This document shows, piece after piece, positions 35,185 through 50,818 of a stretch of DNA of 64,000 bases (position 1 is the stretch's first letter; every line of letters starts with the position of its first letter). The translations under genes and the position numbers were made by a program. Source of the DNA: Gammaproteobacteria bacterium (lineage in GTDB: Bacteria > Pseudomonadota > Gammaproteobacteria > Acidiferrobacterales > Sulfurifustaceae). Location: positions 1 through 64,000 of the forward strand of contig JACQFZ010000056.1 in NCBI GenBank assembly GCA_016199745.1, read 5' to 3'. Below the pieces are notes generated by a model that saw only the letters and a list, made by a program, of their open reading frames with translations, was not told the DNA's origin and made no database searches.

Positions 35185-36204
35185 TTAGGACGGCGCTAAC
35201 TCGTACCAATATTTCATTTCCGTGATATTGACGCTCTTGGCGCCAAAATCGAACTGCTTTATGCGCGCCACCAGCTTTCGCTCGAGCTCCGGCGAACGCA
35301 GATCGCTCGACAATACCTGGCAATCTGTGACGGTACCGGAGGGTGAGATTTTGATGATAAAGACGAACTTTCCTTGTAAACCGGCATCTTCGCGCAATGC
35401 GCGACGATAAATTGTTTGAATAGCGCCCTTATTTCGATCCAGGACAAGACGAATCTCTTCCTCGGAACGACCTGATCCTCCGCCCTTGGCGCTACCTTGA
35501 GAAGCACCGCCCGATCCTCCCCGTCCGCCACCGCCTCCACCAGCACCACCGCCAATGGGACTGTTGACCTGCGTGCCAGCACGCCCCGCCAATCCCCCGC
35601 CGCCGGTGCCTTGGCTGACATTGGAAACGGCAATGCCGCCACTGCCTTTAGTCGCGTTCAACGCGATCATATTGCGCGCACCTTCACCCATCGCCGGCCC
35701 CTTACCCGCCGTGCCCACACCCGGGCCAGTACCGGCGCCCAGTCCCGGCCCCGGTTTCAGTTCTTTATTGAGCTTGGCGGATACGGCGTTATCGCGCAGA
35801 TCGGCCAAATCGTCGGAAAGCGCCAACAAGCCGGTATGCGCCGCCTTCTTGCGTGCGACCTCGGTACGTTTCGTCGTCTCGATCGGCGGCTTGACGATTT
35901 CCTGCTTTTGCGGCTTCGACACTTCCGCTTTTGGCTTAGCAATTTCCGGCGTCGGCACTTCCGGCGCGGCTTTTACTTCCACTGGCGGTGGTGGCGGTAT
36001 CCGCCGATTTTCCAGCACCAACTTGGCCAACCGCTGCGGCACCTCGAGCACAACGTTGCGCTCGATCTTCGGCACCGGCAACCAAGGCCAGATAAGGGTC
36101 ATTAACAAGAAGAAGACCAAGATCCGCTTAAGGATTCGGCGAAAACGGTCCTCGTCGTCTTCTGAGACGGTCCACGGTAAGGCGCCGGAGGCATAGAAAG
36201 ACAT
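35185..36204 (-). CDS. TonB-like energy transducer with AgmX/PglI C-terminal domain
   Basis: A 339-residue protein. One membrane segment near residues 29-46 (LVFFLLMTLIWPWL), a Pro/Lys/Val-rich periplasmic linker (residues 70-120), a Gly-rich stretch (about residues 205-245) and a C-terminal domain RSEEEIRLVLDRNKGAIQTIYRRAL...GKFVFIIKISPSGTV, the AgmX/PglI domain of TonB-like proteins. It is expected to couple an ExbB/ExbD proton channel to an outer-membrane or TPR partner. The ExbB/ExbD/ExbD genes are directly upstream (4-bp gap). It is the last gene of the 16-gene envelope unit. Confidence 0.87.
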   Translation of the reverse strand: MSFYASGALPWTVSEDDEDRFRRILKRILVFFLLMTLIWPWLPVPKIERNVVLEVPQRLAKLVLENRRIPPPPPVEVKAAPEVPTPEIAKPKAEVSKPQKQEIVKPPIETTKRTEVARKKAAHTGLLALSDDLADLRDNAVSAKLNKELKPGPGLGAGTGPGVGTAGKGPAMGEGARNMIALNATKGSGGIAVSNVSQGTGGGGLAGRAGTQVNSPIGGGAGGGGGGRGGSGGASQGSAKGGGSGRSEEEIRLVLDRNKGAIQTIYRRALREDAGLQGKFVFIIKISPSGTVTDCQVLSSDLRSPELERKLVARIKQFDFGAKSVNITEMKYWYELAPS

Positions 36205-36208
36205 TGGC

Positions 36209-36700
36209 TTAACCTTTCTTCTTCAATACCGCAAACGAGATTTCGTTATAGTTCGCCTGCGCACAAGTCACCATGACCTTGCGCAGTAAGCGATAAGGAA
36301 TTTCTTTGTCGCCCATGATAGTCACGCTCTTAATACCGCTCTTTTCATCTGTGCCAATGAGCTGACGACCCGACAGCTGTTCGAGCTCCTGCTTGAGTGG
36401 CGCGATGACATCGCCGTCAATTTTGCTGACGTCGGGAACAGCGGCAACCTTAATACCCTGGACCGTGATCTCCTGATCGTTCACCACGATGACGACCGCT
36501 TGCTTCGGGCTATCGGTCGATGTCGACTCCGGCAATTGCACGGCCTTAGTGCTTGGCAGCACCTCAACTTCGGTACTGTTGGCCAGCAAAAAGAAAATCA
36601 GGATCGTAAAGATGTCGATGAGCGACACCAGGTTTAGGTCAACCAACGCCTTGTTGCGTTCGCGCCGGCGCTGACGCTTGAGCAGCGGCGAATCGATCAT
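36209..36700 (-). CDS. ExbD/TolR-family protein (copy 2)
   Basis: A 163-residue biopolymer transport protein. A basic cytoplasmic N-terminus, one membrane helix near residues 25-45 (VSLIDIFTILIFFLLANS) with the key Asp (LIDIF), and a periplasmic domain ending VMVTCAQANYNEISFAVLKKKG. It partners with ExbB to use the proton-motive force. It overlaps the other ExbD gene by 4 bp. Two different ExbD proteins per ExbB occur in the AglRQS/AglX-type gliding and AgmX-type systems. Confidence 0.9.
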   Translation of the reverse strand: MIDSPLLKRQRRRERNKALVDLNLVSLIDIFTILIFFLLANSTEVEVLPSTKAVQLPESTSTDSPKQAVVIVVNDQEITVQGIKVAAVPDVSKIDGDVIAPLKQELEQLSGRQLIGTDEKSGIKSVTIMGDKEIPYRLLRKVMVTCAQANYNEISFAVLKKKG

Positions 36701-37218
36701 GACGCTCTCCCCGCGCCAGCTCTTGCTTGCGGCGCACGCGGGGCGTCGCCAATCGAAATATCCGGAAATAACTCGTGCGCTGCCGTCGATTTGGCGGCAT
36801 CCGCCGGCACCATGCGCACGGCGTCCAGTACCTGTACCAGCGTGTCATATGACGTCTCTTGTTCGGACAAAATGGTGGCTTCAATTTTGTCCGGGTAGCG
36901 CGCCTTCAGTTGCTGCAAGAATGCCGATAATGCCGGGTAGTCGTGGCCGTCCTTAGTCGCCGCAAAGCGCTGCAGTAAGCCGGTGTTGCGGTCGCCGACT
37001 TCCAATGCATCCGGGCGAATCGTGATCTCCAGCTGCAAATCACGCGGCATCTCGGTCGGTCCGGAGGCAGCCGTCGGTAAATTCAGCTCCAGCACTGCCA
37101 ATCGCGAGAACACGACGCTGGTCAATAGAAACGGCACCAGCACCACGATCAAATTCATAAACGCGGTGATGTCGAGCGCGACCGGATCCCGTTTGAGCCT
37201 GCGTTTGTGGCTGCGCAT
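36697..37218 (-). CDS. ExbD/TolR-family protein (copy 1)
   Basis: A 173-residue protein with a basic start (RSHKRRLKRDPVALDITAFMNLIVVLVPFLLTSVVF). The membrane helix lies near residues 18-42 with the Asp in LDITAF. The periplasmic domain contains DYPALSAFLQQLKARYPDK and DAVRMVP, as in ExbD/TolR. It differs clearly from copy 2 (different helix and C-terminus), so the pair probably forms a heteromer. It lies 1 bp after the ExbB gene. Confidence 0.9.
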   Translation of the reverse strand: MRSHKRRLKRDPVALDITAFMNLIVVLVPFLLTSVVFSRLAVLELNLPTAASGPTEMPRDLQLEITIRPDALEVGDRNTGLLQRFAATKDGHDYPALSAFLQQLKARYPDKIEATILSEQETSYDTLVQVLDAVRMVPADAAKSTAAHELFPDISIGDAPRAPQARAGAGRAS

Positions 37219-37219
37219 G

Positions 37220-37873
37220 TTATTGGCCTGCAGGTGCTATCGGTTTGCGATGCTCGACGATATTCAAAAACTTGACCTTGGCCGCTTCCAGGCTGTCGAC
37301 GATTTCCGACGTGCGTGCCTGCAAGAAGGCATGGATCAACAAAAATGGGATCGCCACCATCAGGCCGAAGGCGGTGTTATTCATGGCGATCGAAATACTG
37401 GCTGACAACAACTCTGATTTCTGCGACGGGCTTACGTTGGCGACCGCCGTAAAGGCCTCGATCAAGCCGATGATGGTACCGAGCAAGCCTAACAAGGTAA
37501 CGACGTTAGCCAACGTCGCCAGATAGTGCGTCCGCTTTTCCAAGCGCGGGACGATTTCCATCATGCCCTCTTCCATCGCCGCATCGATATCTTCACGCTT
37601 GCGCGCCGTCTTCAGGCGCTCCAGGCCATAACTGATCACTTTGCCGATAGCAGTGTCGGACTTGGACGCCATGGAATGGACCTGCGGATATTTACCGCCC
37701 TGTAACGACGGCAGCAGCGCGTCCCATAACTTGCGATTTTCCGAACGTGCGCGACTGATATAGATGAATCGCTCAATCGAAATCGCCAATCCCAAGGCCA
37801 AAACGAAAATGCTCGGAACAATGAATATTCCGGCGTCCTGGAAGAATTTGACCACGGTTGCGTATGTGCTCAT
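37220..37873 (-). CDS. ExbB/TolQ/MotA-family proton channel
   Basis: A 217-residue protein with three membrane segments: near residues 15-33, near 113-135 (YLATLANVVTLLGLLGTIIGLIEAF) and near 155-180 (ISIAMNNTAFGLMVAIPFLLIHAFL). The GLLGTIIGLIEAF signature is diagnostic of the family. With the two ExbD proteins and the TonB-like protein it forms a complete energising complex in the inner membrane. The 42-bp gap to the small exported protein upstream is the widest within this operon. Confidence 0.93.
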   Translation of the reverse strand: MSTYATVVKFFQDAGIFIVPSIFVLALGLAISIERFIYISRARSENRKLWDALLPSLQGGKYPQVHSMASKSDTAIGKVISYGLERLKTARKREDIDAAMEEGMMEIVPRLEKRTHYLATLANVVTLLGLLGTIIGLIEAFTAVANVSPSQKSELLSASISIAMNNTAFGLMVAIPFLLIHAFLQARTSEIVDSLEAAKVKFLNIVEHRKPIAPAGQ

Positions 37874-37915
37874 ACCTGTCTCCTCTCACACTCAATATTT
37901 AGAAAACCACTAATG

Positions 37916-38206
37916 TCACTCGGCCGGCGTCGCTGTCGACCGCGCCTGCAATTGCGAGTGATACTCGACCTCGCGCCGGAACACATCGCGATCGACCGGC
38001 GCCAACACCTCGTCGAGCAAACTGCTGGTGGGACGCCCCACGAGATCGGTCGGCGACGGGCTCTGCCAAGGAATAATATAGATAGCCCTCGGCGACTCCT
38101 GACTGCCAGTAATGCGCGCGCCCGGAAGCTCTAGACGATCGGCGCCCCATGCCAAAGATGTCGCGCCGACAAAACAGACGGCGATTATTTTCTGCAGCAG
38201 ATTCAT
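37916..38206 (-). CDS. Small exported protein of unknown function
   Basis: A 96-residue protein with a clear signal peptide (MNLLQKIIAVCFVGATSLAWGA, cleavage near residue 22). The mature part is short, has one IYIIPWQSP strand and a charged helical tail (REVEYHSQLQARS). I do not recognise a family. It overlaps the TPR lipoprotein gene by 4 bp and precedes exbB, so it is probably a periplasmic partner of the energised complex. Confidence 0.72.
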   Translation of the reverse strand: MNLLQKIIAVCFVGATSLAWGADRLELPGARITGSQESPRAIYIIPWQSPSPTDLVGRPTSSLLDEVLAPVDRDVFRREVEYHSQLQARSTATPAE

Positions 38207-38868
38207 CCGCTCACTCCGCTTTTATTCGATTCGCCAGCACGCCGGCGTTGATTGAGGTCGGCGATCCACTTACGCACAGTCGCCGCCTCGGCCGGCACCA
38301 ACGCCATGTAACGTTCATAGTGCGGCAGCGCTTTTTCCGGATCCTGCAGATAGACGTCGAACAGGATGCCAAGATTCAAATGAGCGTAAGCATAGTTCGG
38401 ATCCAACTGCAGCGCTTGCTGATAGGCTTTGCGCGCTTCCTCGAACCGCCCTTCGTTACGATGCACGATCCCGAGTTCGTTGTAATATGCCGGACGCTCG
38501 GGGTTGAGTCGAATCGCTTTGCCGAAGGCTTCGACCGCTTGCGCCGCTCTACCGGTGCGGGCATATACGATGCCGAGATTGGCGTATGGCGCCGACAACT
38601 CCGGTTCGCGTGCAATTAGCGCGGTCAACTCGCGCTCGGCGTCGGCCATGCGACCGGCCTGCAGCGCCGCGACCGCACGCTCGAACGCCTGATGCGACTC
38701 CGGATGCGTCACCGGCTCGACCTTTGTCGACGTCGGTGCCGGCGACGCCGCTGCCGCAGCAACATCGGCTGCGGTTGGGTTCGGATTGGGCGCTCGCGAT
38801 GTCGCGCAAGCAACGAGCAGCACGCCCAGGGTCACGAATAAAAGTGCGCGAACGTTACTGAAGTTCAT
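38203..38868 (-). CDS. TPR lipoprotein
   Basis: A 221-residue lipoprotein. The signal peptide ends with lipobox LLVAC, Cys near residue 21. After an Ala/Pro/Thr linker come about four TPR units (AFERAVAALQAGRMADAERELTAL, PYANLGIVYARTGRAAQAVEAF, YNELGIVHRNEGRFEEARKAY, AHLNLGILFDVYLQDPEKAL). It is a probable outer-membrane-anchored scaffold for the TonB/Exb system, similar in type to AglT-like gliding-motility TPR proteins. It overlaps genes on both sides. Confidence 0.86.
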   Translation of the reverse strand: MNFSNVRALLFVTLGVLLVACATSRAPNPNPTAADVAAAAASPAPTSTKVEPVTHPESHQAFERAVAALQAGRMADAERELTALIAREPELSAPYANLGIVYARTGRAAQAVEAFGKAIRLNPERPAYYNELGIVHRNEGRFEEARKAYQQALQLDPNYAYAHLNLGILFDVYLQDPEKALPHYERYMALVPAEAATVRKWIADLNQRRRAGESNKSGVSG

Positions 38869-41611
38869 CGATCACCTTTTCGCTTTTTTCCGTCTTCGCG
38901 TAGCGTACCGGACGCAACTGTCCGAGCGCGCTCAAACTCTTCTTGACCCATTGGTCGTAAATGCCACCCGGCATGCGATGGGCGTTGAGCTCGTGTATTT
39001 CGATCGCTTTCTCTTCGAACGGAAACGCTTGCTCTTCCAGCAACACGTTGTACTGCTCGAGCTCGTCGCCTTTAAGCCCTTTCGGGCGCTGTGAGCTGAG
39101 CAACGCTTTGCTGAAATCGTGATAAAGATCGGCGGTGCGGAAAGTCGCGGTCGTCACGATATCGGCCGCGCCATAATCGGCGGCGATCGAGTATGCCTTC
39201 AACAACTCCTGCATCCGCTGCTTCTTGATCTTGAGGCTCTTCTTCAGCGGTTCGACCAAACGCACGTCGCGATATGCCGCTTCCAGCGGCTCGGTCATCG
39301 CCAGCGCAGTGAGCGCACCCAAATTACGCGTACGCTCGCTACGCTCGCTGCCGCCTTTTTGCTCAGCGTCGATCAGCTCGCGCGACCAGGCATAACGATT
39401 CGCGCGATCGCCTTGCTTCTCGCTGATCTTCATCAATCGGTAGCGCGCCTCGATCGCCGGTTCCAGCGGTCGCGGATGTTGGCGCACATAGCGCTCGTAG
39501 GCAGTAGCGGCGCTGTGCTCGTTGCCGGCTTTCTCGTACAGTTCGGCAGCGCGCCATAATGCGTCGCGGCTGAAGCCAACGTCTTTCTTGGACGATGCCA
39601 ACACTTCGAACTCGGCCGCCGCCTTGAGCGGCTGGCCGCCTTCGAGATAACACACGGCCAGCTTGCCCGGCACTTCTGCTTGCAACGCATGCGTCGGGTA
39701 ATTCTTGCGGAACGCTTCGAGAATCTTGGTGGCACCGGCCCAATCTTTGAGCGTGATCAGCGCTGACGCCGCGTCATACTCGGCATTCACACGGATCGGC
39801 GACGTCGGTACTTCGCGCCCCAATCGCAGAAAATGATCGGCCGCGGCCCGCAAATCGCCACCGGCCTGCGCTTGCTCGCCTTGCTTATAGATCGACGCCG
39901 CCAAACGCTCATTCAACCCAGCGCGTGTCGGCGACTGCTCGGGCGTCAGCGCGAGCACTTGTTGATAGGAGCCCTCGGCCCGATCGAACTCGCCCTTGTC
40001 GAATTCCGCATGCGCAATCACGGTCCAGGCGGTGCGCCGCAGCTCCGACGCTGCCGGCGGTTTGAGCGCCAACACCAACTGCGCCACTGGCACCGCACGC
40101 TCGGGCAACTTCAGGGCATACAGCTTCTCGGCCGCATCGGTCAGCACACCCGGCCGGCGCGAATCATTAGGATTGGCGGCGGAAAAACGCAGCGCACTGT
40201 CGATCGCCTGCAGCCGTATCGGTTGGCGCTGATCGAGGTCGATCGTCTTCTCCTGCTCGGCATAGGCGAGCAACGCCGCATAACCGGCGTCGGCGCTCTT
40301 GTCGTGCCGCTGATAATCATTAGCCACGCGCTCGTATTCGGCCGCGGCTTCGGAAAAACGCTTACTCTCGAACAACGACTCGGCCAGCAAGAAATTGATC
40401 GCCGGCGTCTGCGCGTCGTCCGGGAACGATTCGATATAGGCACGGTACCAGCGAGCTGCTTCGCGATAGTCCTCGGTCGTTTTGCTGCGCTGCGCTTCCG
40501 CATGGTAGTGGCGGCCGAGCTCGTCCAGATGCGTCTTTAGGAGCGGTAACACCTGCGCATATACATCGGCGCTGTTAGCGGCATGAAACTCGCTCGTCTT
40601 GCCGTAGCGCACGACATATTCCTTCTTCATCTCCAGCGCCAAAGTCGCGAACTTTGCTTGCTGGTACATCTGAATCACACGCGCCTGTAACAACGGCGCT
40701 TGCGGATGCGTCGGAAAACGGCGGGCGAAGGCGTTGAGCGTATCGGCCGCGTCCTTGACGCGTTCCTGCTTGTTGTACAAGTCGCCGAGCTGTTGGTAGA
40801 CCAGGTATTCATAGCTACGCCGATCGCCGGTGCCGGTAAAACGCGGAATGGATTCGGCGCCCTGCAGATTGGCCAAGCTCAAGCTCATTACCCGGAACGT
40901 ATCCTCGACCAGCTCGCGATCGGCGCGTGCTAGCTGCTCGAACTGTTGGCTGGCATCGTCGCCAGCGAGCTTGCGGTCCAGCACGGCGAAGAACGACGGC
41001 AGACCGTCTTCGAGCCGATCTTGCTTGAACAGCGACCATCCACGCATATAGAGCGCGCGCTCGTAGAATGGCGAGGACTCGCCCTGCTGCAGCACCGAGC
41101 GATAGGCGCGCTCAGCCGCTTCATAATCACGCAAGGTAAACAGTAACTCGCCGCGACGGAACTCGGCCTCGGCGCGATGCGCACTGGTGGGATACTGCGT
41201 CACTAACCGATCGAGCGTCGCCAACGCCCGCTTCAAGTTGCCACCCTGATCGTAGGCATGCGCCAATTGATAAAGCACATGGTCGTTACCGGCAAATTGC
41301 GGATGCGCCCGCAATAAATCTTCGTAGGTTTTTATCGCTGGATCAAACTTGCCGTTGTCTTCGGCCTCAGCATTTTCGATTTCGATGTCGCCCAGACGGC
41401 GCAGCGCTTCGGGTCGGTACCGGTCTTGCGGCGCCGCATCGAGAAAGTGGCGATAGGCTTCGGCGGCGGCGGCGCGGCTGGCGCTGACAGCGACGTCGCG
41501 CTCGATTGCCACTTGCTGGCGCTCGAGACTTTTGATCGTGCCGGCATCGTCCGGTGCCGTCGCACAAGCGGCGAGCAGACACACGGTCATACCAGCGCTT
41601 AGGCGCTTCAT
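38855..41611 (-). CDS. Large TPR lipoprotein
   Basis: A 918-residue protein. Short signal with lipobox LLAAC (Cys 16), then tetratricopeptide-like repeats along nearly the whole length (for example YQLAHAYDQGGNLKRALATLDRLV, AEFRRGELLFTLRDYEAAERAY, LAESLFESKRFSEAAAEYERVA). The C-terminal 120 residues are charged and helical. It resembles the large TPR proteins of the AgmX/AglT gene neighbourhoods. It is likely a long periplasmic or outer-membrane-tethered scaffold. It overlaps the other TPR genes by 4 and 14 bp. Confidence 0.85.
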   Translation of the reverse strand: MKRLSAGMTVCLLAACATAPDDAGTIKSLERQQVAIERDVAVSASRAAAAEAYRHFLDAAPQDRYRPEALRRLGDIEIENAEAEDNGKFDPAIKTYEDLLRAHPQFAGNDHVLYQLAHAYDQGGNLKRALATLDRLVTQYPTSAHRAEAEFRRGELLFTLRDYEAAERAYRSVLQQGESSPFYERALYMRGWSLFKQDRLEDGLPSFFAVLDRKLAGDDASQQFEQLARADRELVEDTFRVMSLSLANLQGAESIPRFTGTGDRRSYEYLVYQQLGDLYNKQERVKDAADTLNAFARRFPTHPQAPLLQARVIQMYQQAKFATLALEMKKEYVVRYGKTSEFHAANSADVYAQVLPLLKTHLDELGRHYHAEAQRSKTTEDYREAARWYRAYIESFPDDAQTPAINFLLAESLFESKRFSEAAAEYERVANDYQRHDKSADAGYAALLAYAEQEKTIDLDQRQPIRLQAIDSALRFSAANPNDSRRPGVLTDAAEKLYALKLPERAVPVAQLVLALKPPAASELRRTAWTVIAHAEFDKGEFDRAEGSYQQVLALTPEQSPTRAGLNERLAASIYKQGEQAQAGGDLRAAADHFLRLGREVPTSPIRVNAEYDAASALITLKDWAGATKILEAFRKNYPTHALQAEVPGKLAVCYLEGGQPLKAAAEFEVLASSKKDVGFSRDALWRAAELYEKAGNEHSAATAYERYVRQHPRPLEPAIEARYRLMKISEKQGDRANRYAWSRELIDAEQKGGSERSERTRNLGALTALAMTEPLEAAYRDVRLVEPLKKSLKIKKQRMQELLKAYSIAADYGAADIVTTATFRTADLYHDFSKALLSSQRPKGLKGDELEQYNVLLEEQAFPFEEKAIEIHELNAHRMPGGIYDQWVKKSLSALGQLRPVRYAKTEKSEKVIDELQ

Positions 41612-43470
41612 GGTGCTGTCCCCTCAGACCGCACCGCTTCGTCATAGATCTGGGCAACAGCGAAGCGCGCCTGCGTAACATAGGCGACGATACGTTCACG
41701 TTGTTTGCCGAGCTCGCCGGCAGCAAGATCGGCCAGATATTTTCCTTGGACGTCGCTTGCCTTGGCGACATCCGTACGTAGCACACTGACACGGCCGCGC
41801 AACACGCCGATCCGCTTGGCAAAATCGTCGAAGCTAGCAGGCGCATCGACCTGCGCTTGCGCCAACGCCGCACGCCGCGTGCCGGCCTCGGTGATCAGCT
41901 TATCGACCCCCTGCAAGTGCTTCTTCGCATCCCACAGGCGCGCTTGATAGTTGGCTGACAAATCCCACGCCAGCAATCCGTTAAGCAAACGGGATTTATC
42001 ACGCGCTTCCTGCATTTCCGTCGCCGGCGTTTGTGCCAGCGTGCGGTCGACACGCTGCAGGCGCTGCAACAACGCCCGCTCTTTATCGTTCGCCAGCGCC
42101 GCCGCATCCTGCTCGCGCTCGATGCGCTCGATCTCGGTCGCATATTGCGCGCGGCTGGCGTCCAAGCGCTCGATGTCGAGCGTCCGCTGTTCCGACAACA
42201 CCTTCGGCAAGCGCTCGGCAAACGCCTGCCGGCGATTGGCGACCATGTCGTCGTTCACTTCCAAGTGTCTGGACCACTTCTCCAGGTTTTCCTGGAGGAA
42301 ACGAAGATCGCGATAATTCTTAAGCGCTTCTTGGAACTCGTGGCTGGCGAGCAATTGCGTGAGGTAACGCGTCTCCGGTGTCTCCGGCGCGGTATCCATC
42401 CGCCAGTACCAACCGGATTCGTCGACCGGGTTGGTTTCCAAAATATGGGCGATGTATTTGCCGGCACGGATCGATGCGATCGCCTCATCCAGCGATTCGA
42501 TCTCGTGCGTGTAGGCGGTCAACGCCGTTTCATAACGCTCGAGCGCTTGACCGTAGGCACCGGCTTTGCCGTAGGCATACGGCACCGCCAGCAACGATTC
42601 CTGCACCGCCGCGTCGGCGACGGCACGCGTCGACAGTTCGGTCCACGGGACCAACGCCTGCTCGTGCTGATTCAGCGCCGCGTATGCCCAACCCATGCCC
42701 AGCAACGCCTTATTCGACTGCAAGCCGGTCAAACGCACGCGTTCGAGATACGTCTTGGCGCGCGTCGGGTTGCCGTCTTGTAGAAATGTGTAGGCCAGTG
42801 CGACATTCGCTTTGTCTTTGAGCGCAGCCCTTTCTTCGCCAAAGGATGGCGTCGCACCGAGCGTTTCGAGTAACTGCACGCCGGCGTCGACGCTATTGCC
42901 ACCCGCCTTAATCATTGCCACACCCAAGTTGTAATGGCCGTACACCGACCACTCCGACTTCGGCGACACACGCTTGAGCATGTCGATCGCCTCCGGGTAT
43001 TGGCTGCGCTTCATCAATAGATAGGAATGCAGCAGCAACCGCTCGTTTTCCAGATCGCCGGGCAGCGGCGCGGCCACACGCGCCAAGGCATCCTCGGCCT
43101 GCTCGATGTAGCCACGTTGATAGCGGATTTTCGCCAAATGAAACCAGGCGCGATCGCGCACCGCCGGCGGCGCACCGGATTCGATCAGATCTTCGAAAAT
43201 ACGTCCGGCTTCGACATGCGCGCCGTATTCGAGCAACATGCCGCCGCGCAATAGTTCGGCTTCGTCGAGATGCGGACCGAGGCGCGCGAAATAGCGATCG
43301 GCCATCGATTCGGTGAGCGCGGTGAAATAGTTGCCTTGGAAGAAATGAAACAACACATCGCCGTAAGGCAGCGCCTGTACCGTGTGCTTCTCGGGCTCGG
43401 CGGCATACGCTGCCGTCGACAGCGTCGCGGCGACGGCAAGGCTAATGAGTTTTTTGGCGACTGAGACCAT
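41608..43470 (-). CDS. Exported TPR/coiled-coil protein
   Basis: A 620-residue protein. The signal peptide ends near AAYAA. The N-terminal half has TPR-like helices (WFHLAKIRYQRGYIEQAEDALARVA, HYNLGVAMIKAGG, KDKANVALAYTFLQDGNPTRAKTYLERV). The C-terminal half (about residues 380-620) is strongly charged and predicted coiled coil (RLDASRAQYATEIERIEREQ). The combination suggests a periplasm-spanning scaffold. It overlaps the 918-residue TPR gene by 4 bp and lies 6 bp after the unassigned exported protein gene. Confidence 0.84.
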   Translation of the reverse strand: MVSVAKKLISLAVAATLSTAAYAAEPEKHTVQALPYGDVLFHFFQGNYFTALTESMADRYFARLGPHLDEAELLRGGMLLEYGAHVEAGRIFEDLIESGAPPAVRDRAWFHLAKIRYQRGYIEQAEDALARVAAPLPGDLENERLLLHSYLLMKRSQYPEAIDMLKRVSPKSEWSVYGHYNLGVAMIKAGGNSVDAGVQLLETLGATPSFGEERAALKDKANVALAYTFLQDGNPTRAKTYLERVRLTGLQSNKALLGMGWAYAALNQHEQALVPWTELSTRAVADAAVQESLLAVPYAYGKAGAYGQALERYETALTAYTHEIESLDEAIASIRAGKYIAHILETNPVDESGWYWRMDTAPETPETRYLTQLLASHEFQEALKNYRDLRFLQENLEKWSRHLEVNDDMVANRRQAFAERLPKVLSEQRTLDIERLDASRAQYATEIERIEREQDAAALANDKERALLQRLQRVDRTLAQTPATEMQEARDKSRLLNGLLAWDLSANYQARLWDAKKHLQGVDKLITEAGTRRAALAQAQVDAPASFDDFAKRIGVLRGRVSVLRTDVAKASDVQGKYLADLAAGELGKQRERIVAYVTQARFAVAQIYDEAVRSEGTAP

Positions 43471-44060: not shown

Positions 44061-45173
44061 TCAATACCAAATCGAAACAAACAGTTGCAGGATATTCGCA
44101 TCGAACTCATAAGCGTCGCCGGTGCGCATATCGGTAAAGTCGTCGTAATAAAAACGCACGTAATCGTGCGCCGCGTTCAGCGTAACGCGGCGATAGCTGT
44201 GTTCAGACCACTTATAGCTGGCCTTTATTCCCAACGAATGGCTGCTGAAAGACGACAACTCCTTGTCGCGCGCCATGTACGTCATCTCGGACGGAAAATT
44301 GTCGCTATAGAAGGACGCTGCTGATTGATGGTAATAGCGGTAGCGCGGCTCGATGGTCCAACGTGAACCGAGCCGGCGCTGGTAACCTAGCTCCAGCGTA
44401 TGCGCCTTGATCTGCCAGGTGTCCCAGAAATAGCGGTACTCGAGGCGTAACGACGAATCGAGCGAACCTTGATCGTTTAATAAACCCTTCATTGCCCGCA
44501 GCGCAACCGCATACGAATCGCGCGTGCCGGGATACCGTTCCGGTACCAACAAACCTTGTAAACGCGCCGCTCGATACGGGCTATTCAAATAGCCGTCCTC
44601 GAGTATGCCTTCGTAGTCCAGGCTCATGAGCAACGTCTTGCTCATGACTTGGGAAATGCCCAGACGGTACTGATAACGGTTGATGTCATCTTTGAAATCG
44701 GTCTGCACCTTGCCGACCTCATCGCTGCCGGCGGTGTAACCCAAGTTAACCGTGGTCAAGCCGTCGAAGATCTCGTGCGCGACATTGACACCGAAGGTGC
44801 TGGCTGTGTAATCGGGCTCGTCGCTGGTGCTATACGACAAATTCATCGTCGTATTTCGGTACAAGTAATCCAGCGCCACCCCCTGCTCTTGGCGCTTCTC
44901 TTTATAAGGGCTCGCGGTGGTAACGACGTCGATCGACGCACCACTGATGCTGTCGACATAATAAGAAGCGGACAGCGAGAACTGATCCATACCCTTACGC
45001 ACCAACACCGCCGGTCCACCGACCGAGGTACCGCCGCCGTCATAATAGTGATACATGACGTCGGCACGATCCTCCGGCAACACCGCCGCCTGCAACAATG
45101 GGCCCGGCAACGCTAACAACGCCGCCAGTAACGCAAGATAACCGTAACAGCGCCGAGCTAGTTGCATCCGCAA
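44061..45173 (-). CDS. DUF3570 outer-membrane beta-barrel protein
   Basis: A 370-residue protein. The signal peptide ends near LLQAA. DUF3570 features follow: VLPEDRADVMYHYYDGGGTSVGGPAVLVRKG, then many alternating strands (FSLSASYYVDSISGASIDVVTTASPY) and a final strand ending VSIWY, the terminal aromatic expected for BamA recognition. It always travels with DUF4266 and a TlpA-like thioredoxin in the clusters I know. It is a probable outer-membrane component. It overlaps the DUF4266 gene by 16 bp. Confidence 0.86.
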   Translation of the reverse strand: MRMQLARRCYGYLALLAALLALPGPLLQAAVLPEDRADVMYHYYDGGGTSVGGPAVLVRKGMDQFSLSASYYVDSISGASIDVVTTASPYKEKRQEQGVALDYLYRNTTMNLSYSTSDEPDYTASTFGVNVAHEIFDGLTTVNLGYTAGSDEVGKVQTDFKDDINRYQYRLGISQVMSKTLLMSLDYEGILEDGYLNSPYRAARLQGLLVPERYPGTRDSYAVALRAMKGLLNDQGSLDSSLRLEYRYFWDTWQIKAHTLELGYQRRLGSRWTIEPRYRYYHQSAASFYSDNFPSEMTYMARDKELSSFSSHSLGIKASYKWSEHSYRRVTLNAAHDYVRFYYDDFTDMRTGDAYEFDANILQLFVSIWY

Positions 45174-45373
45174 CCCCCGCCCTGCGCCGAACCAGCGCCG
45201 CGCGCACCCTCGCGCACTTCGTAAACGTGCTGCCGATACCGGTCCGCCAACGGGTCGTGCGAAAAGCTCATGAGCGGATCGGCCAACACCTCGCGCTCAT
45301 AAGGCTTTACTTGCGCGCAGGCGCCAAGCGCTACCAGCGCAAACAGCATCAGCAATAGTGCCAATCGTTTCAT
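45158..45373 (-). CDS. DUF4266 small lipoprotein
   Basis: A 71-residue lipoprotein. The lipobox is ALGAC (Cys near residue 19), followed by AQVKPYEREVLADPLMSF and a His-containing stretch, ending with the Gly/Cys tail GGGCGCN. This is the typical DUF4266 protein. The two C-terminal cysteines next to a thioredoxin-like gene suggest thiol or metal chemistry, but this is inference. It overlaps the TlpA gene by 4 bp and the DUF3570 gene by 16 bp. Confidence 0.87.
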   Translation of the reverse strand: MKRLALLLMLFALVALGACAQVKPYEREVLADPLMSFSHDPLADRYRQHVYEVREGARGAGSAQGGGCGCN

Positions 45374-45888
45374 TCTTTTAACAACGTCCGCACTTCTTGC
45401 TCGTATTGTTGCTCGTAAGAGCTTTGAAAACCGTGATGCACGTAACGCACACGCCCGTCACGATCGATGATCAGCGTCGCCGGCATGCTGTTCACGTCGT
45501 ACAACTTGGCCACACGTTTTTCTTGATTCTTATTGCCGTCGGCGTCATACAACGTCGGCAGCTGTACACCGAGTTTGGTCAACATCGCGTCGGCGGCGGT
45601 ACGATCGGCGTCGATATTTACCGCGAGCAAGCTGAAGCCGGCGGCTTGATAACGCGCGTACAGTTTTTGCAGTACCGGCAACTCTTGCCGGCACGGTGCG
45701 CACCACGTCGCCCAAAAATTAATCAACACGACTTGGCCGCGCAGCTCACTCAACCGCACATTGTGGCCACTGTTGCTCTTGAGCGCGAAGTCCGGTGCAG
45801 CCGCGCCGGCGGCCGGAAAAGCGAATGCGGACGGCGGCGTTAGGACCAGCGCCGCCGTCACCATGAGTGATCGTATGAGCTTATTCAT
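45370..45888 (-). CDS. TlpA/ResA-like exported thioredoxin
   Basis: A 172-residue protein. The signal peptide ends near SAFAFPA. A redoxin domain follows: DFALKSNSGHNVRLSELRGQVVLINFWATWCAPCRQELP, containing the CAPC active site, and SMPATLIIDRDGRVRYVH with the cis-proline loop. It is a periplasmic thiol reductase, plausibly acting on cysteines of the heme-motif lipoproteins upstream or the DUF4266 tail. It is coupled to DUF4266 by 4-bp overlap. Confidence 0.92.
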   Translation of the reverse strand: MNKLIRSLMVTAALVLTPPSAFAFPAAGAAAPDFALKSNSGHNVRLSELRGQVVLINFWATWCAPCRQELPVLQKLYARYQAAGFSLLAVNIDADRTAADAMLTKLGVQLPTLYDADGNKNQEKRVAKLYDVNSMPATLIIDRDGRVRYVHHGFQSSYEQQYEQEVRTLLKE

Positions 45889-45896: not shown

Positions 45897-46526
45897 CTAA
45901 AAGAACAACGACAAGCCTAATGTGAACTGAAAGTTATGCTTAAGCTCGTTCTCGCCCAAGAGATCGGACGAGAACATTAAATCGCGCATCTCGGTACGCA
46001 CTGTTAGCCAGCGCGACGGCACCATCAGTACGCCGACGCCGAGATTGAACGCGTTCGACTTCTCGTCATTGAAGTCGACTGCACCAACACCGCCGATGAG
46101 ATACACCGATGACGTCATCGCCCAATTTTTGCCGAGGAATACTTCGCCCGGAAACAGGTTGTAACCGATCGACACCTGATAGTAGTCAAGATCGACTTCG
46201 GTCTTATTGAGAATGGCGATAGCGGCGAGGTTTCGGATCGCTTCGTCCGATACGGTCGACTTGCCGTACGTGCCTTCGATAAAGAAGTCTTCGGTAACGT
46301 GATACGCCAAGCGGTAACCGGTAACCGGCTCCGAACCGAAGTCTTCGACACTGAGCTTGCCGTAATACATGCCGAGCTCGATGTCGTCGACATTGACGCG
46401 CGCGATCTCAACCGAGCGTCGATCGATCTGCGGTTGGATGACTGACTCCGGCGCATCGTCAGCGACGGCGATGCCGACAAACGACAGTCCAATCAGCGTG
46501 GCGAACAAGAAAATTTTCTGTGTCAT
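45897..46526 (-). CDS. Outer-membrane beta-barrel protein (OmpW/OmpA-like size)
   Basis: About 209 residues from the ATG at 46526 (MTQKIFLFATLIG); the longer frame upstream has no protein character. Signal peptide to about residue 23 (GIAVA-DD). Eight or so amphipathic strands follow (TGYRLAYHVTEDFFIEGTYG, YYQVSIGYNLFPG, WLTVRTEMRDLMF), ending with FTLGLSLFF. It is homologous in layout to the barrel domain of the neighbouring SH3 protein, so the two are likely a paralogous pair. It is 8 bp from tlpA and 10 bp from the SH3-barrel gene. Confidence 0.82.
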   Translation of the reverse strand: MTQKIFLFATLIGLSFVGIAVADDAPESVIQPQIDRRSVEIARVNVDDIELGMYYGKLSVEDFGSEPVTGYRLAYHVTEDFFIEGTYGKSTVSDEAIRNLAAIAILNKTEVDLDYYQVSIGYNLFPGEVFLGKNWAMTSSVYLIGGVGAVDFNDEKSNAFNLGVGVLMVPSRWLTVRTEMRDLMFSSDLLGENELKHNFQFTLGLSLFF

Positions 46527-46536: not shown

Positions 46537-47325
46537 CTAGAAGAAGAATGAGATGCCGAGCGACCACTCTTTATAAGTGTCGGTGCGATCGTGATCGACC
46601 AACACAACGTGGTTTTTTAAATCCGCACGGGCGACGAACCGACGTGTTAGATAATAACGTGCACCGATACCGACATTGGCGAGATCGGCCTTGGTATCGT
46701 GCGCGTCCACCAGCGTCGCTTTCGGCTGATTTTCAAAACGGCCCATGCCGAGGGTAAAAAACGGCGAAAATCGTGCATCCGGATACGGTTGCGACGTAAG
46801 CGATACGTAATACAGCGAGGTGGTAGAAAACTGACCGGTTGCCTCGGCGACGGCGAGCTCGACGAGCAAATTTTCGTGGAAACGAAAACCGGCGTGCGCC
46901 GTCAGGATAGGAACGGACTCAAGACGACCATACGAAAAACCAGCTTCAACGCGGCGGTTCAGAAAATCTTGCAGCAACACATCGCCGAAGGTCTTTTGCG
47001 TACCCTCTTCGGTGAGCGTAGTTTCCATTTGCTCGCGCGGTACCCAACCTTCCTTATCGCGCGCCGTGCGCACTTCGAACCAATCGGTGTGCTGGCGAAT
47101 GATCTCCACCACCTCACCACGCTCGGCAATATAAAAAACGGGATAACCGCGGCCCGGGCCGGTGTGCAATTCAAGATACGGCTCGGCAACCCATACTTTG
47201 ACGAGTTCGCCGGCCACGGCCGGCCAAGCAACGAGGCTCAGCAGCCACAAGCACAGTCCCGGAAACAGGTATCGGCATTCCTTGCGTAAGATTCGGCCGC
47301 ACCGCGCCGTTATGCCCGCCTTCAC
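46537..47325 (-). CDS. SH3-domain outer-membrane beta-barrel protein
   Basis: About 262 residues from a GTG at 47325 (VKAGITARCGRILRK), two bases after the TGA of the upstream gene. The much longer frame (to 47733) runs antiparallel to protein logic and is a shadow. Signal peptide to WPAVAGE, a bacterial SH3 domain (VWVAEPYLELHTGPGRGYPVFYIAERGEVVEII...GWVPREQM), then a barrel ending LGISFFF. SH3 domains bind peptidoglycan or proteins, so this barrel may be tethered to the wall and to the TPR scaffold. Confidence 0.78.
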   Translation of the reverse strand: MKAGITARCGRILRKECRYLFPGLCLWLLSLVAWPAVAGELVKVWVAEPYLELHTGPGRGYPVFYIAERGEVVEIIRQHTDWFEVRTARDKEGWVPREQMETTLTEEGTQKTFGDVLLQDFLNRRVEAGFSYGRLESVPILTAHAGFRFHENLLVELAVAEATGQFSTTSLYYVSLTSQPYPDARFSPFFTLGMGRFENQPKATLVDAHDTKADLANVGIGARYYLTRRFVARADLKNHVVLVDHDRTDTYKEWSLGISFFF

Positions 47326-47327
47326 GA

Positions 47328-47837
47328 TCAATAGCCGCAGCTGGCCGTTGGATTGGCGACCGCCGTACAAAGCCCACAAGAGGAAGCCGCCTGATCCGCC
47401 ACTTGATTGCTGATCCAATCGTGAATGGCGACATAACATGCGTCGCTGCGGCTTGGGAAAATATCGCCGCCGCCGTGCGGGCCGGCAGTAGCGGAAGGCG
47501 CGACGTCGTCCTGCGTCGGCTCGACTAAGAGCTTGCTCTCGTCCGGGCTGGTGAAATTGACCTGCTGCCGGACCGCATTGAAGCTGGCATCGGGATCGCT
47601 GGTATCGAGTGTGAACGGTCCGCCATTGCCGCCGGGCTTGTGGCACTCGACACAAGTAATCACGGCGCCACCACGGCGCCGGATCTGTGACGTTAGTACC
47701 GGCAAGACACAGGTTTGAAAGTCGTTGGCGCATAAGGTCGATGTCGACGTGACACGCTCGGACGGCACTTTCTCACCGCATGCAACCAGGCCCCAACCCC
47801 AAACCGCGGCGCAAACTACCCACTTCCAATTCCTCAT
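47328..47837 (-). CDS. Lipoprotein with one c-type heme motif
   Basis: About 169 residues from the ATG at 47837 (MRNWKWVVCAAVWG). The lipobox is GLVAC. ITCVECHKPGG contains a CxxCH heme-attachment motif; the sequence after it (FTLDTSDPDASFNAVRQQVNF, then DSKLLV-like ESKLLVEP) follows the usual planctomycete/proteobacterial cytochrome-like domain. The same FxxVxxxxxF...DSxLL pattern ends the large protein upstream. Three additional cysteines near the C-terminus (SCGLCTAVANPTASC) may form disulfides. It lies 8 bp after the large heme-motif lipoprotein gene. Confidence 0.8.
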   Translation of the reverse strand: MRNWKWVVCAAVWGWGLVACGEKVPSERVTSTSTLCANDFQTCVLPVLTSQIRRRGGAVITCVECHKPGGNGGPFTLDTSDPDASFNAVRQQVNFTSPDESKLLVEPTQDDVAPSATAGPHGGGDIFPSRSDACYVAIHDWISNQVADQAASSCGLCTAVANPTASCGY

Positions 47838-47845
47838 TACGCGCC

Positions 47846-50818
47846 TCAAGGACAGCCGAGCGACGGTCCCCCGGTAATCCAATTCCGGAGTGCAGTGTAA
47901 TTATCGGAACCCAGCGGCAACCTTGCCACGCTACCTGGATGACTCGGCGTTTGCGTCTCCGTACGCGACGGCCGATACAGCAACAGGCTCGAATCTGGAT
48001 CTGTTAGGTTGGTAACCATCGACGCCGCCACACTGAAATCAGCTCCGACATTACCGGTCAAGATAAAGCGATTACCGGCAAACGATCCATTTACTGGATT
48101 CTCGCTGGAACCGTTACCACTGAACGGCTGATGGCAGCTGGCACATTGCGCCTGCAAGATCGGCTGTACGCGGCAACCGAACGCCGTCTCCGACAATTGC
48201 GCCATCGACGAACGTACGTTGCCGCTGTTGTCGAACGGATCGTTGTAGTACTGGCCACCCAAGTCGGTCCATTCGTTCAACACGCGCCGCTCCGAACTCG
48301 TGAGCGACCACGCTTGCCCGACATGGGATACGTAGGTTGCACCGTTCGTGCAGTTGCTGTTACCGGTGCGGCAGAAAGCGCGCTGCGTGCCAGTGCTAGG
48401 GTTTTCCGCCTTGAGCTTTTGCTCGTACATACGCTCGATCAACCGGCTCGACCGGGCACTGCCGGCGGTGACCGCTGCGCTTTCGCGCTCGATCTCAAGC
48501 TCGCCATCTTCGTTAACGTTGATGATCGGCCGGCCGTTGCTATCGAGGATCGGCGTACCGACCATCAAGGCCTCGTACGAAATGTAACGGCCGGTCGAAC
48601 CTGATGTCGTAGCGCTGAGATCCAAACCGGCGGCACTGGTGGAGCTGTTGTGACAGCCGCTGGTGGCACACTTGGCCGTAAGAATCGGCTGCACATGATC
48701 CGGGAAATTGATCACGATGGAACAATCTTTGGCTGACCAAGTTGCCGGATCGGCACAATGTGCCGGCCCTTTGATCGTTCGTGACGACGCATTCGGATAG
48801 GAGATGGCGATTGGATCTTGCGCCGTCACCGTTTTGCTATCGCGCGTGTTGTACAGCGACGTCCAATAATCGGCGAACGTCGGATCGCGCGTGAGCTTGG
48901 CATAAGTGGAATCCGCGGCACGGGTCTGCGCCATGGTCGTCGCCTCGGTGCCGCCCGGATGGATACCGACCGTTGCCGGATCGTTTAAGAAGTTACCGCC
49001 GCTCGCATTGGTCGTACCGAGGCGCGACGAATGACAGCCCTTACAGAAACGCCGCTCGCCTTCACGTGCCTGAATCCAATGCGTATGCGGGGTGAACGCA
49101 CGTCCTTCCTTATCGAGCGCAGTAATGGTGATCGGGGTATCCGACGGCACTTTCGCCCGCACCGAGCCATCGGGCTCGATCACGCCATAACCGATGATCT
49201 GCTGCATCTCGGACTCGGTCTCGCCGATCGCCTCGCGCGACAAGCCACCCGGCGTCGGAACCGCCTTGGTGATACGGAAGAAACGTGCGACACGGTTATC
49301 GAACGTCGTCGTGCCCGGCAACTTGAGGTTGGCAATATCGGGACGACCACTGGCACGCGGAATCGATTCGCCATCCGCTAGTACGGCATCGCCCATGCGC
49401 TGCCGACTATCCGTGTCGTACACCGTGTTGACGTCGAACAAACCGAGCCCGCTGCCGATGGTCGTGTCGGGTACGAAATTGCTCTTTACTTGCGGTACTG
49501 GCCGCGCTTGCAACGCGACTGGATCTGAGTAGTAGTAACTCGTTTGTTGCACCACCACCGGACGCAACGTCTTGTCGGTGAGACTTAGCATGTAGATGCC
49601 GTAGGCCGGATCCGCCTCTTCGTACTGATCCAACTGATCCTTGACGCGCGAGTCCTTACAAGACACCGCTTGGCCGTCCAGCAGTACGCGGCATGGCGAG
49701 TACACCACCAACGCGCGGCTAGTGTTGTCCCAGAGCGGATACGGGCTGGAATAACGACCCAGCGACGCCGGGCCCATACCACGCGCCGCTTCATGCTCGG
49801 CATCGGGTGAGCTGGGAAATAACAATTTTGTGACTTGGAACTGACCCCGAGTTTCGCCCAGCTGATTCGGCGGCGGATTGCTCGTGCCGGGATCAGTCGC
49901 ATCGGAATAATTATTGGGGTCCATAATTTCGAGCGAACCGCCCTCGTTCGTCCCGGATAGCGGCATCGTCGTCGACATCAGGCGGCCATCCGGCATCTCG
50001 CGCGGATGTAAATACGAATTGCCGGGGCTGTGGGCGCCGTAAACAACGAAAAGATTGGTTCCGTCTGGATTGACTTTAAAGACGGTGAACTGATTACGCT
50101 CACCGACGTGATCCCAGCGCGAGAATAAAATTTCACCGGTACTGAGCACCGTCGGATTGCGATCGTGACTCTGGTTGAAGGAAATCTGCTGGCAGCTACT
50201 GCCATCGGCATTCATGACGTGCAGCGCAGTTGTTTCTTCGCGCTCGTATTCGTCGTGGTAGGTATACACCGGCCCGCCATCGGCCGTCATTTTGGTTTTG
50301 CTACCTATCTGACGGTTGGAGACGAAGACGATACGCCCATCCGGCAGGTAGGCCGGGTCGACATCGTCACCGGCGAAACTGCTCTGACACGAAATCTGCC
50401 GCAGGTTTTTGGTTTCGGTGTTGTATTCCCAAATCGACCAGTGGGCATCGCCGTTGCGGCGCATGGCAAATAAAACTTCTTTGCCGTCGTACGAAACCTC
50501 GGGGTCGGAAACATCGCCCTTACCGTCGGTGTAACTGCCGGTCACATTGGTTTCACTACCGCTCGGAGAGGACCGATCACGGACGTACAAGTCGCCGCCG
50601 GCGCCAGTGATGATCGAATCGGTCGGGTTGCCGAGAGTACTGACGGGACGCCTGACATAGGCAATGGGAACATTGCCCTGGATGGTAACGCTATCGTCAC
50701 CAGAGTCGGAGTTGGAATCGGAGCCTGTGCCACCGTCGCTACAAGCCGCTAGCGCGGCAACCATCATTACTACGAAGGCGAATACAACCCTGTTCTTGAT
50801 ATTATCAAGGGCACGCAT
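47846..50818 (-). CDS. Large lipoprotein with beta-propeller and three heme motifs (hydrazine synthase alpha-like)
   Basis: A 990-residue protein from the ATG at 50818 (MRALDNIKNRV), which has a strong SD (AGGAGG, 5 nt). Lipobox MVAALAAC, then an Asp/Ser-rich linker. An N-terminal TolB-like propeller shows VSYDGKEVLFAMRRNGD, YLPDGRIVFVSNRQ and STGEILFSRWDH. The C-terminal part has FCKGCH, CATSGCH (CX4CH) and QCASCH motifs, each in a cytochrome-like context. The order propeller then heme domains resembles the HzsA family, which is far wider than anammox bacteria. It is probably an exported redox or substrate-binding protein. It heads the 16-gene unit and lies behind the riboswitch. Confidence 0.82.
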   Translation of the reverse strand: MRALDNIKNRVVFAFVVMMVAALAACSDGGTGSDSNSDSGDDSVTIQGNVPIAYVRRPVSTLGNPTDSIITGAGGDLYVRDRSSPSGSETNVTGSYTDGKGDVSDPEVSYDGKEVLFAMRRNGDAHWSIWEYNTETKNLRQISCQSSFAGDDVDPAYLPDGRIVFVSNRQIGSKTKMTADGGPVYTYHDEYEREETTALHVMNADGSSCQQISFNQSHDRNPTVLSTGEILFSRWDHVGERNQFTVFKVNPDGTNLFVVYGAHSPGNSYLHPREMPDGRLMSTTMPLSGTNEGGSLEIMDPNNYSDATDPGTSNPPPNQLGETRGQFQVTKLLFPSSPDAEHEAARGMGPASLGRYSSPYPLWDNTSRALVVYSPCRVLLDGQAVSCKDSRVKDQLDQYEEADPAYGIYMLSLTDKTLRPVVVQQTSYYYSDPVALQARPVPQVKSNFVPDTTIGSGLGLFDVNTVYDTDSRQRMGDAVLADGESIPRASGRPDIANLKLPGTTTFDNRVARFFRITKAVPTPGGLSREAIGETESEMQQIIGYGVIEPDGSVRAKVPSDTPITITALDKEGRAFTPHTHWIQAREGERRFCKGCHSSRLGTTNASGGNFLNDPATVGIHPGGTEATTMAQTRAADSTYAKLTRDPTFADYWTSLYNTRDSKTVTAQDPIAISYPNASSRTIKGPAHCADPATWSAKDCSIVINFPDHVQPILTAKCATSGCHNSSTSAAGLDLSATTSGSTGRYISYEALMVGTPILDSNGRPIINVNEDGELEIERESAAVTAGSARSSRLIERMYEQKLKAENPSTGTQRAFCRTGNSNCTNGATYVSHVGQAWSLTSSERRVLNEWTDLGGQYYNDPFDNSGNVRSSMAQLSETAFGCRVQPILQAQCASCHQPFSGNGSSENPVNGSFAGNRFILTGNVGADFSVAASMVTNLTDPDSSLLLYRPSRTETQTPSHPGSVARLPLGSDNYTALRNWITGGPSLGCP

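Follow-up and report, generated by a model that had tools for sequence, protein, structure and literature searches.

Gene content and layout of the locus

The window analysed here is a 64,000-nucleotide stretch of a gammaproteobacterial genome (Acidiferrobacterales, Sulfurifustaceae; assembly GCA_016199745.1, contig JACQFZ010000056.1, positions 1 to 64,000). At 35185-50818 it carries a run of 16 genes, all on the minus strand and without internal stops, in which genes for predicted outer-membrane redox proteins are followed by those of a motor and scaffold resembling the Agl-Glt complex of gliding bacteria. Fourteen of the 15 intergenic spaces are at most 14 bp or overlaps, stops overlapping the next starts are common, and the largest space, from the gene of a 96-amino-acid (aa) protein to that of ExbB, is 42 bp; the coordinates and spacing given by an earlier note, made from the sequence alone, are thus borne out. 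That note had all 16 genes right and missed two elements, a riboswitch of the cyclic di-GMP (c-di-GMP) class I type and ApbE, which lies directly upstream on the same strand and brings the conserved unit to 17 genes. It also counted two outer-membrane barrels; both are present, and DUF3570 is predicted to be a barrel as well, which makes three. The features are given below from upstream to downstream, with E-values or bit scores of the matches.

51155..52189, minus strand: ApbE, flavin adenine dinucleotide (FAD):protein flavin mononucleotide (FMN) transferase (PF02424, 2.6e-84); first in the 17-gene order of eight other genomes
50854..50941, minus strand: c-di-GMP-I riboswitch aptamer, leader of the 16-gene run (RF01051, 70.3 bits, E 9.7e-12, gathering threshold 35)
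47846..50818, minus strand: HzsA-like lipoprotein (PF18582, 5.3e-15; 5c2v_A, 6.9e-9; PD40; lipobox LAAC)
47328..47837, minus strand: small lipoprotein with one CVECH motif (lipobox LVAC; Cytochrome_CBB3, 0.0022, weak and below cut-off)
46537..47325, minus strand: SH3 domain plus outer-membrane barrel (PF08239, 2.6e-8; PF13505, 1.5e-4, below cut-off; TIGR04565, 35 bits, cut-off of 60 not reached)
45897..46526, minus strand: outer-membrane barrel of the OMP_myx_plus family (TIGR04565, 147.9 bits, cut-off 60)
45370..45888, minus strand: TlpA/ResA-like thiol-disulfide oxidoreductase, WCAPC (NCBIfam ResA 1e-33 and TlpA 2e-26, both below cut-offs)
45158..45373, minus strand: DUF4266 lipoprotein with C-terminal CGCN (PF14086, 1.8e-22)
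44061..45167, minus strand: DUF3570, predicted outer-membrane barrel, motif DSISGAS (PF12094, 6e-38)
43477..44046, minus strand: UNK197, exported protein of no family and first core gene (no Pfam or NCBIfam match; model pLDDT, the predicted local distance difference test, 86.3)
41608..43470, minus strand: exported TPR protein, 620 aa (TPR matches; GltC-like position by order only)
38855..41611, minus strand: TPR lipoprotein, 918 aa (YbgF/BamD-type TPR matches; lipobox LAAC; GltD-like position by order only)
38203..38868, minus strand: TPR lipoprotein, 221 aa, GltE-like (GltE model 51 bits, cut-off 225, among other TPR models; lipobox LVAC)
37916..38206, minus strand: small exported protein, 96 aa (no Pfam or NCBIfam match; supported by a homologue alignment)
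37220..37873, minus strand: ExbB/AglR-type motor channel protein (PF01618, 5.6e-28)
36697..37218, minus strand: ExbD homologue a (ExbDa), with Asn replacing the proton-carrying Asp (PF02472, 3.5e-14)
36209..36700, minus strand: ExbD homologue b (ExbDb), membrane Asp invariant (PF02472, 2e-16)
35185..36204, minus strand: AgmX/PglI-type transducer with a TonB-like C-terminal domain (NF033768, 59 bits, cut-off 40; TonB_C 1.5e-4, below cut-off); sole AgmX match in the genome

We refer to the downstream half (UNK197, the three TPR proteins, the 96-aa protein, ExbB, ExbDa, ExbDb and the transducer) as the core, and to the upstream half (ApbE, the HzsA-like and CxxCH lipoproteins, the SH3 and OMP_myx_plus barrels, TlpA, DUF4266 and DUF3570) as the redox half. 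A promoter may lie in the 336 bp behind ApbE, where promoter prediction gave nothing above chance. Internal terminators and promoters that might split the halves were predicted no more often than in shuffled sequences (5 versus 7.6 and 19 versus 20.1).

Conserved gene order and co-occurrence

Conservation was assessed in 16 loci from 14 genomes compared with the window (first set) and in 100 neighbourhoods around UNK197 matches (second set), with loci numbered L and genomes G. The 17-gene order recurs identically, on one strand, in eight other genomes from five family codes (L022, L029 and L035 in the first set; L077, L081, L100, L103 and L157, 5/100, in the second), with spaces below 270 bp except behind ApbE (up to 441 bp). 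Contig ends or the 20-kb fetch limit truncate many of the other loci. The claim of one machine in one gene run stands for the window and these eight genomes; elsewhere the halves are divergent or on separate contigs, and the motor is sometimes encoded at another place.

UNK197, which serves as the core marker, is present in 82/369 genomes of the class and in 10/299 genomes of a phylum-wide draw, all ten from the same class and one of them the window's own. The DUF3570 subtype of the window, defined as matches over 200 bits and set off by a score gap from 258 to 181 bits, occurs in 56/369 class genomes, and UNK197 is present in 56/56 of these. Among the 57 places of this subtype, 31 lie within 3 kb of UNK197 and 14 at 3.9-29 kb, giving 45/57 within 30 kb; the remaining 12 are on another contig and none is farther off on the same contig. 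Linkage is thus conserved and the homologues are not scattered, a point on which the earlier note had staked its proposal, and the 56/56 and 45/57 counts support its idea of an energised trans-envelope complex tied to redox proteins. Conversely, 53/55 genomes with UNK197 over 170 bits have the DUF3570 subtype (G123 and G414 lack it; UNK197 scores come from two profiles, and the 170-bit groups in genome and locus counts differ slightly). The HzsA-like protein (over 300 bits) is found in 51/369 genomes, 50 with the core marker and 49 with the DUF3570 subtype, the exception being G090. Because the DUF3570 profile derives mostly from loci found via UNK197, the subtype is partly defined by linkage, and the co-occurrence claim rests on the score gap and on there being no DUF3570 above it without the core. 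These counts include the window's own genome, and the Fisher p-values disregard shared ancestry. In a set of 60 genomes that includes the window's own, 14 have any DUF3570 and 10 of these the present subtype. The relatives L031-L034 have only a canonical TlpA-DUF4266-DUF3570-ApbE-type cluster, with no core gene in the fetched stretch (DUF4266 was undetected in L033 and ApbE in L034).

A motor and scaffold of the Agl-Glt/Nfs type

The Agl-Glt/Nfs and flavinylation systems are compared here and below as described in the consulted sections of the papers cited. With the Agl-Glt/Nfs core complex the present core shares one ExbB/MotA-type and two ExbD-type proteins (PF01618, and PF02472 twice) adjoining the scaffold genes, a TonB/AgmX-PglI-like transducer, exported TPR proteins, an arrangement as one cluster in gammaproteobacteria and a motor sometimes apart from the scaffold. 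The transducer exceeds the AgmX/PglI C-terminal cut-off and reaches only 21 bits with the full GltG model (cut-off 650); Pfam at E <= 0.05 found TonB_C in it and no FHA domain, which is one difference from Agl-Glt/Nfs. By models, the TPR proteins give the subthreshold GltE match listed above and no GltC or GltD match. Another difference is the attached redox set; the consulted sections on Agl-Glt/Nfs mention no redox neighbours (PMC3169522, PMC3858216). Luciano (2011, PMC3169522) reported this core complex from gammaproteobacteria, suggesting a complex of unknown function, and considered it unlikely that the core drives motility alone. In Myxococcus xanthus one Agl motor serves both Glt and Nfs, and movement of surface polysaccharide by such machines has been reported (Wartel 2013, PMC3858216). 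The OMP_myx_plus match of one barrel makes orthology with the GltA/GltB barrels of M. xanthus an attractive possibility. UNK197 and the 96-aa protein are candidates for the extra Agl-Glt core gene that is absent from Myxococcales (PMC3169522). The 620-aa TPR gene is the next detected gene after UNK197 in 89/98 loci. The UNK197 model consists of an N-terminal helix, a coiled coil and a beta-sandwich; fold searches (best Z 9.0, best Foldseek E 2.5e-3) found it weakly similar to transthyretin-like proteins and other beta-sandwiches, a resemblance ascribed to a common fold and set aside as a clue to identity.

The two ExbD homologues are unlike. ExbDb keeps the membrane aspartate in 78/78 rows, and ExbDa has Asn at the matching position in 76/78 (positions matched by eye on the motif). 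By contrast, the published description of M. xanthus gives the aspartate to both AglQ and AglS (PMC9389320). To judge by these residues, a 5:2 motor containing an ExbDa/ExbDb pair would hold one protonatable site and not two, which bears on the workings of such proton motors. An ordinary Ton or Tol-Pal system was rejected: ExbB/TolQ, ExbD/TolR and a TonB-like domain are common to both, but the matches stay below the equivalog cut-offs (TolQ 63 of 221 bits, ExbB 37-39 of 135-206, TolR 27 of 127), no Pal or plug receptor was recognised, and the two ExbD proteins differ from each other. Type IX secretion was likewise dismissed, PorW/SprE reaching just 53 of 250 bits, from a TPR protein.

A divergent, putative flavinylation module with a predicted barrel

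The redox half holds all four parts, close together, of the ApbE-DUF3570-thioredoxin-DUF4266 clusters described in 2021 with uncertain function (Meheust 2021, PMC8238504). As in those clusters, DUF4266 ends in CxC (39/39 rows) and one flavinylation-type motif is retained in DUF3570. That paper reports ApbE and DUF3570 as a tested enzyme-substrate pair in Chlorobium and an iron transporter in 25 DUF3570/DsbD-type clusters; it surveyed five genes either side, so some of the present loci may be in its tables. The clusters studied here differ in their divergent DUF3570 subtype (22-25% identical to four canonical DUF3570 proteins), with one motif where the published ones have two, in the Agl/Glt-type core found in each of the 56 genomes and in that no DsbD was recognised among the 17 genes. 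The likeness to gliding-motility and redox clusters seen in the earlier note is confirmed by these two published modules, and its word 'undescribed' was too strong, since either half matches one of them (PMC3169522; PMC8238504).

An AlphaFold2 model of DUF3570 (40-row alignment, mean pLDDT 90.5) has 16 long strands. Foldseek gave 455 PDB matches at E <= 0.001, and the best 50 of the 455 are outer-membrane barrels, for example FadL, OmpG and PelB, with TM-scores by query length of 0.33-0.50; on this model DUF3570 is predicted to be a 16-strand outer-membrane barrel. Counted from a periplasmic N-terminus, the loops after odd strands total 79 residues and those after even strands 22, so the orientation would be that of ordinary outer-membrane barrels. 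The motif DSISGAS (residues 74-80 of the 370-aa reading from TTG at 45173) ends strand 3, and because this strand is odd, the flavin is predicted to sit at the outer barrel end or mouth, towards the cell surface. D-x-x-[ST]-x-A-[ST] occurs in 39/43 DUF3570 rows (SSAS in 18, SGAS in 11, others in 10). One of the four rows without it, L030, is truncated by a contig end; the others, L086, L131 and L136, lack a detected DUF4266 or ApbE neighbour (L131 is cut by a contig end), and L131 and L136 come from one family. A scan of 12 other families with D-x-x-[ST]-G-A-[ST] found no other ApbE substrate.

The HzsA-like lipoprotein

The protein encoded first in the 16-gene run resembles the alpha subunit of hydrazine synthase in its propeller repeats, its HZS_alpha middle heme domain (CKGCH at 592) and its later heme-type motifs (CATSGCH at 717, CASCH at 892). 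The middle motif, CxGCH, is invariant in 23 rows; the L021 protein was left out of the HzsA-like set owing to an in-frame stop in the gene of G035 (L021 3483-6392), a real break or a sequencing error. It differs from HzsA in being a lipoprotein, in scoring 71.4 bits against the equivalog cut-off of 800 and in that no HzsB or HzsC was recognised among the 17 genes, and hydrazine synthesis was rejected as its role. The protein probably lies at the cell surface. Porin-cytochrome conduits such as MtrCAB hold a multiheme cytochrome inside an outer-membrane barrel; the present system resembles them in combining a barrel with a heme lipoprotein as a possible electron path, and differs in that a flavin-bearing barrel is predicted instead and is tied to a proton motor.

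The HzsA-like type in G090, the genome without the core marker, is a shorter frame (G090:C1:1998599-2000212, 630 aa) that matches profile positions 11-453 only. No Glt-type ExbB (best 106 bits) and no AgmX match were found in this genome, and the frame is possibly a remnant of a lost system.

A c-di-GMP riboswitch in some lineages

Thirty-five nt lie between the aptamer and the ATG that begins the HzsA-like gene, a start (50818) favoured over 50914 because of the riboswitch and of the lipoprotein signal right after the inner ATG. An AGGAGG ribosome-binding site follows the aptamer after about 24 nt, and since the stretch between them has no T-run, the riboswitch seems likelier to act on translation. 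Four genomes of one family code (the window's own, G003, G013 and G017) have it before the HzsA-like gene, and two others before a TlpA-UNK197-core run, namely G421 (c-di-GMP-I-GGC class, 68.9 bits) and G329 (41 bits); a position before either half in different lineages fits a shared function. The leader of G035 (L021) has no riboswitch, 14 further loci gave no Rfam match, and the leaders of G010, G014, G031 and G041, cut by contig ends or the fetch, were excluded from the at-locus check. Run over the 100 loci, a model of the six riboswitches gave seven matches, of which five were its own training sequences, one lay 180 bp 3' of a redox-free core (L155) and one was at chance level (L094, E 0.92). 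The riboswitch is a lineage trait; as a general regulator of the system it is not supported, being at the locus in only 6/67 genomes. Specificity for c-di-GMP, as against cGAMP, is the Rfam label.

Two other riboswitch observations concern these loci. A cobalamin riboswitch (L089 6513-6732, plus strand, 102 bits) lies between ApbE and the core run in G421. G222, to which the L155 match belongs (19435-19523), has 21 c-di-GMP-I matches, many of 113-114 bases against the usual ~87, as if amplified.

Separability of the two halves

UNK197 scores over 170 bits at 56 loci, and a redox gene stands beside the core in 44/50 of those spanning at least 15 kb. Five of the six others belong to genomes with the DUF3570 subtype on another contig (G329, G340, G131, G258 and G234); the sixth, G414, has none. 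All nine core genes are present in 50/86 loci of at least 15 kb (29/50 high-scoring, 21/36 others), and are clustered in the window too. The redox half is inverted or divergent in several loci (L086, L117, L119 and L160). Nineteen genomes contribute 20 loci that are redox-linked or high-scoring and are followed by 8 kb or more of sequence, yet are missing the motor genes; 19/19 of these genomes encode a Glt-type motor elsewhere: nine carry a motor at a second fetched core locus (versus 3/33 for loci having their own motor), and the other ten have a Glt-type ExbB of at least 336 bits and an AgmX match elsewhere, with other ExbB-like matches at or below 114 bits except for a second copy of 290 in G234. 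A motor encoded apart from its scaffold recalls, by analogy, the shared Agl motor of M. xanthus (PMC3858216). A quick tree of 78 loci, built from five core proteins, shows 6 changes of the redox label, compared with about 26 when labels are shuffled; the redox-linked loci are scattered over it, interspersed with clades that lack redox genes. This weakly points to an old association with later loss or duplication; the branches are long and the root is arbitrary.

Proposed function and alternatives

We propose, as an explanation about evenly poised between right and wrong, that the locus encodes an Agl-Glt/Nfs-type envelope machine, driven by protons, which has a redox complex of flavin and heme proteins at the cell surface as its outer-membrane cargo. 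The proposal starts from the gene set, its order, the co-occurrence and separability of the halves, the ExbD pair, the predicted barrel with its motif and the riboswitch match, all read from sequence. ExbB and the ExbD pair would turn proton flow into motion of the AgmX transducer, whose TonB-like end may work on a periplasmic scaffold of UNK197 and the TPR proteins, and this scaffold would couple to the three outer-membrane barrels. ApbE would attach FMN to DUF3570, with TlpA and the CxC lipoprotein DUF4266 as a putative thiol relay on the periplasmic side. The FMN near the surface could exchange electrons, in either direction, with the HzsA-like heme lipoprotein, and DUF3570 would hand electrons across the outer membrane, while the motor would open, position or move the redox complex to reach a substrate outside the cell. 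In the lineage of the window, this action would belong to the surface-attached state that c-di-GMP usually signals. A more specific form, in which the system is an outer-membrane electron conduit driven by the proton-motive force, with the DUF3570 flavin barrel and the HzsA-like protein exchanging electrons with the outside, a gliding-type motor gating or moving them and, in some lineages, c-di-GMP as the switch, we consider doubtful.

Several observations weigh against the redox-cargo proposal. The system is patchy: the DUF3570 subtype is in 5/19 other genomes of the same family, and the sole same-genus genome (89% complete) has no DUF3570 match. UNK197 is lower-scoring at 44/100 core loci, and 34/36 of those spanning at least 15 kb have no redox gene, so the motor core does not need the redox set and the halves are separable. 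Seven genomes with the DUF3570 subtype lack an HzsA-like protein over 300 bits (G104 and G393 have fragments). Flavinylation is uncertain, because 28/39 motif-bearing DUF3570 rows deviate from the published [S/T]GA[S/T], mostly as SSAS, and because the second published motif is absent from the window's DUF3570, which has a single SGAS. Such a riboswitch is in 25/67 genomes and at the locus in only the six named above, none of the 17 genes was recognised as encoding an electron donor in the inner membrane, and physical contact between the halves is only proposed.

Four other explanations use the same genes differently. The redox genes could be maturation factors (TlpA, DUF4266, ApbE) for a surface transport or polymer machine, with the HzsA-like protein as a surface sensor or binder. 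The reported movement of surface polysaccharide by Agl-Glt/Nfs machines (PMC3858216), the XrtA-type exopolysaccharide gene 1.8 kb downstream of AgmX in the window and TlpA as the nearest detected gene before UNK197 in nine loci fit this idea; since the ApbE and DUF3570 of Chlorobium were tested as enzyme and substrate (PMC8238504), the CxGCH motif of the HzsA-like protein is invariant, and 0/7 neighbour families (at least five loci each) matched an exopolysaccharide family, with one matching nothing, we rate it as rather unlikely. An energised importer, whose heme/flavin proteins would reduce a metal complex or cofactor at the cell surface before the transducer opens a barrel for its uptake, would account for the TonB-like C-terminal domain and for the iron transporter of the 25 published clusters (PMC8238504). 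It is unlikely: among the 17 genes neither a TonB-dependent receptor with a plug nor a transporter of the inner membrane was recognised, and three TPR proteins and two unlike ExbD proteins would be unusual for Ton.

That the locus encodes a gliding or adhesion machine, with the redox proteins part of a surface adhesin complex, agrees with the Agl-Glt-like motor and scaffold half, the c-di-GMP riboswitch and a LamG-domain lipoprotein family beside ten related loci, but the 2011 authors themselves doubted that the core alone drives motility (PMC3169522), and we hold this explanation to be quite improbable. Least credible, and very improbable in our view, are two independent systems standing side by side without joint work: the halves are separable and the core occurs without the redox set, but the co-occurrence of 56/56 and 50/51, a DUF3570 subtype that even when separated was not found without the core marker in the genome, and a riboswitch that precedes either half depending on the lineage all argue against independence.

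What is new is the tie between the two halves, each known separately. The earlier note knew of no named system with this composition; in this it agrees with the open-licence literature, in which we found no paper joining both halves (no proof of absence), though each half by itself is known. In the same literature, DUF4266 and DUF3570 each occur in a single paper, the same for both (PMC8238504), and the consulted part of a paper on force transducers (PMC12204202) does not mention AgmX, GltG or GltJ. The redox-cargo proposal suggests a job for a motor core of published unknown role. If its electron-conduit form is true, it would give a function to the Agl-Glt core complex of many gammaproteobacteria and describe an extracellular redox system of a kind that uses mechanical work. 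The near-perfect co-occurrence joins the open questions about the two halves, both of which can be tested in one cultivable host, and the locus would offer a natural example of a motor module with interchangeable cargo.

Neighbouring genes

A tRNA gene (52309-52380, plus strand) lies between ApbE and a small open frame at 52853-53185 that looks HTH-like by eye and gave no match in an NCBIfam scan. On the other side, a long minus-strand run of large open frames occupies 2226-33396; its last gene, the only one of the run identified, encodes the XrtA/PEP-CTERM-type exopolysaccharide glycosyltransferase mentioned above (TIGR03013, 576 bits), with only gltX between it and AgmX. Conserved neighbours of redox-free core loci were set aside as housekeeping-like (phosphoribulokinase in six loci, a sulphite-reductase-like protein in five); a lipoprotein-like family in six of these loci had no clear match. 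Three families recur beside the redox half or related loci. One, of ~400-460 aa, is found at 24 loci (including L085, L087 and L088), has one CxxCH in 23/24 and has a representative that weakly matches PSD2/DUF1585. Another stands beside the redox half at 12 loci, with a representative that by eye has the look of a Tat signal. The third is the lipoprotein family of ten related loci whose representative has a LamG domain, with two CxxCH motifs in 8/10.

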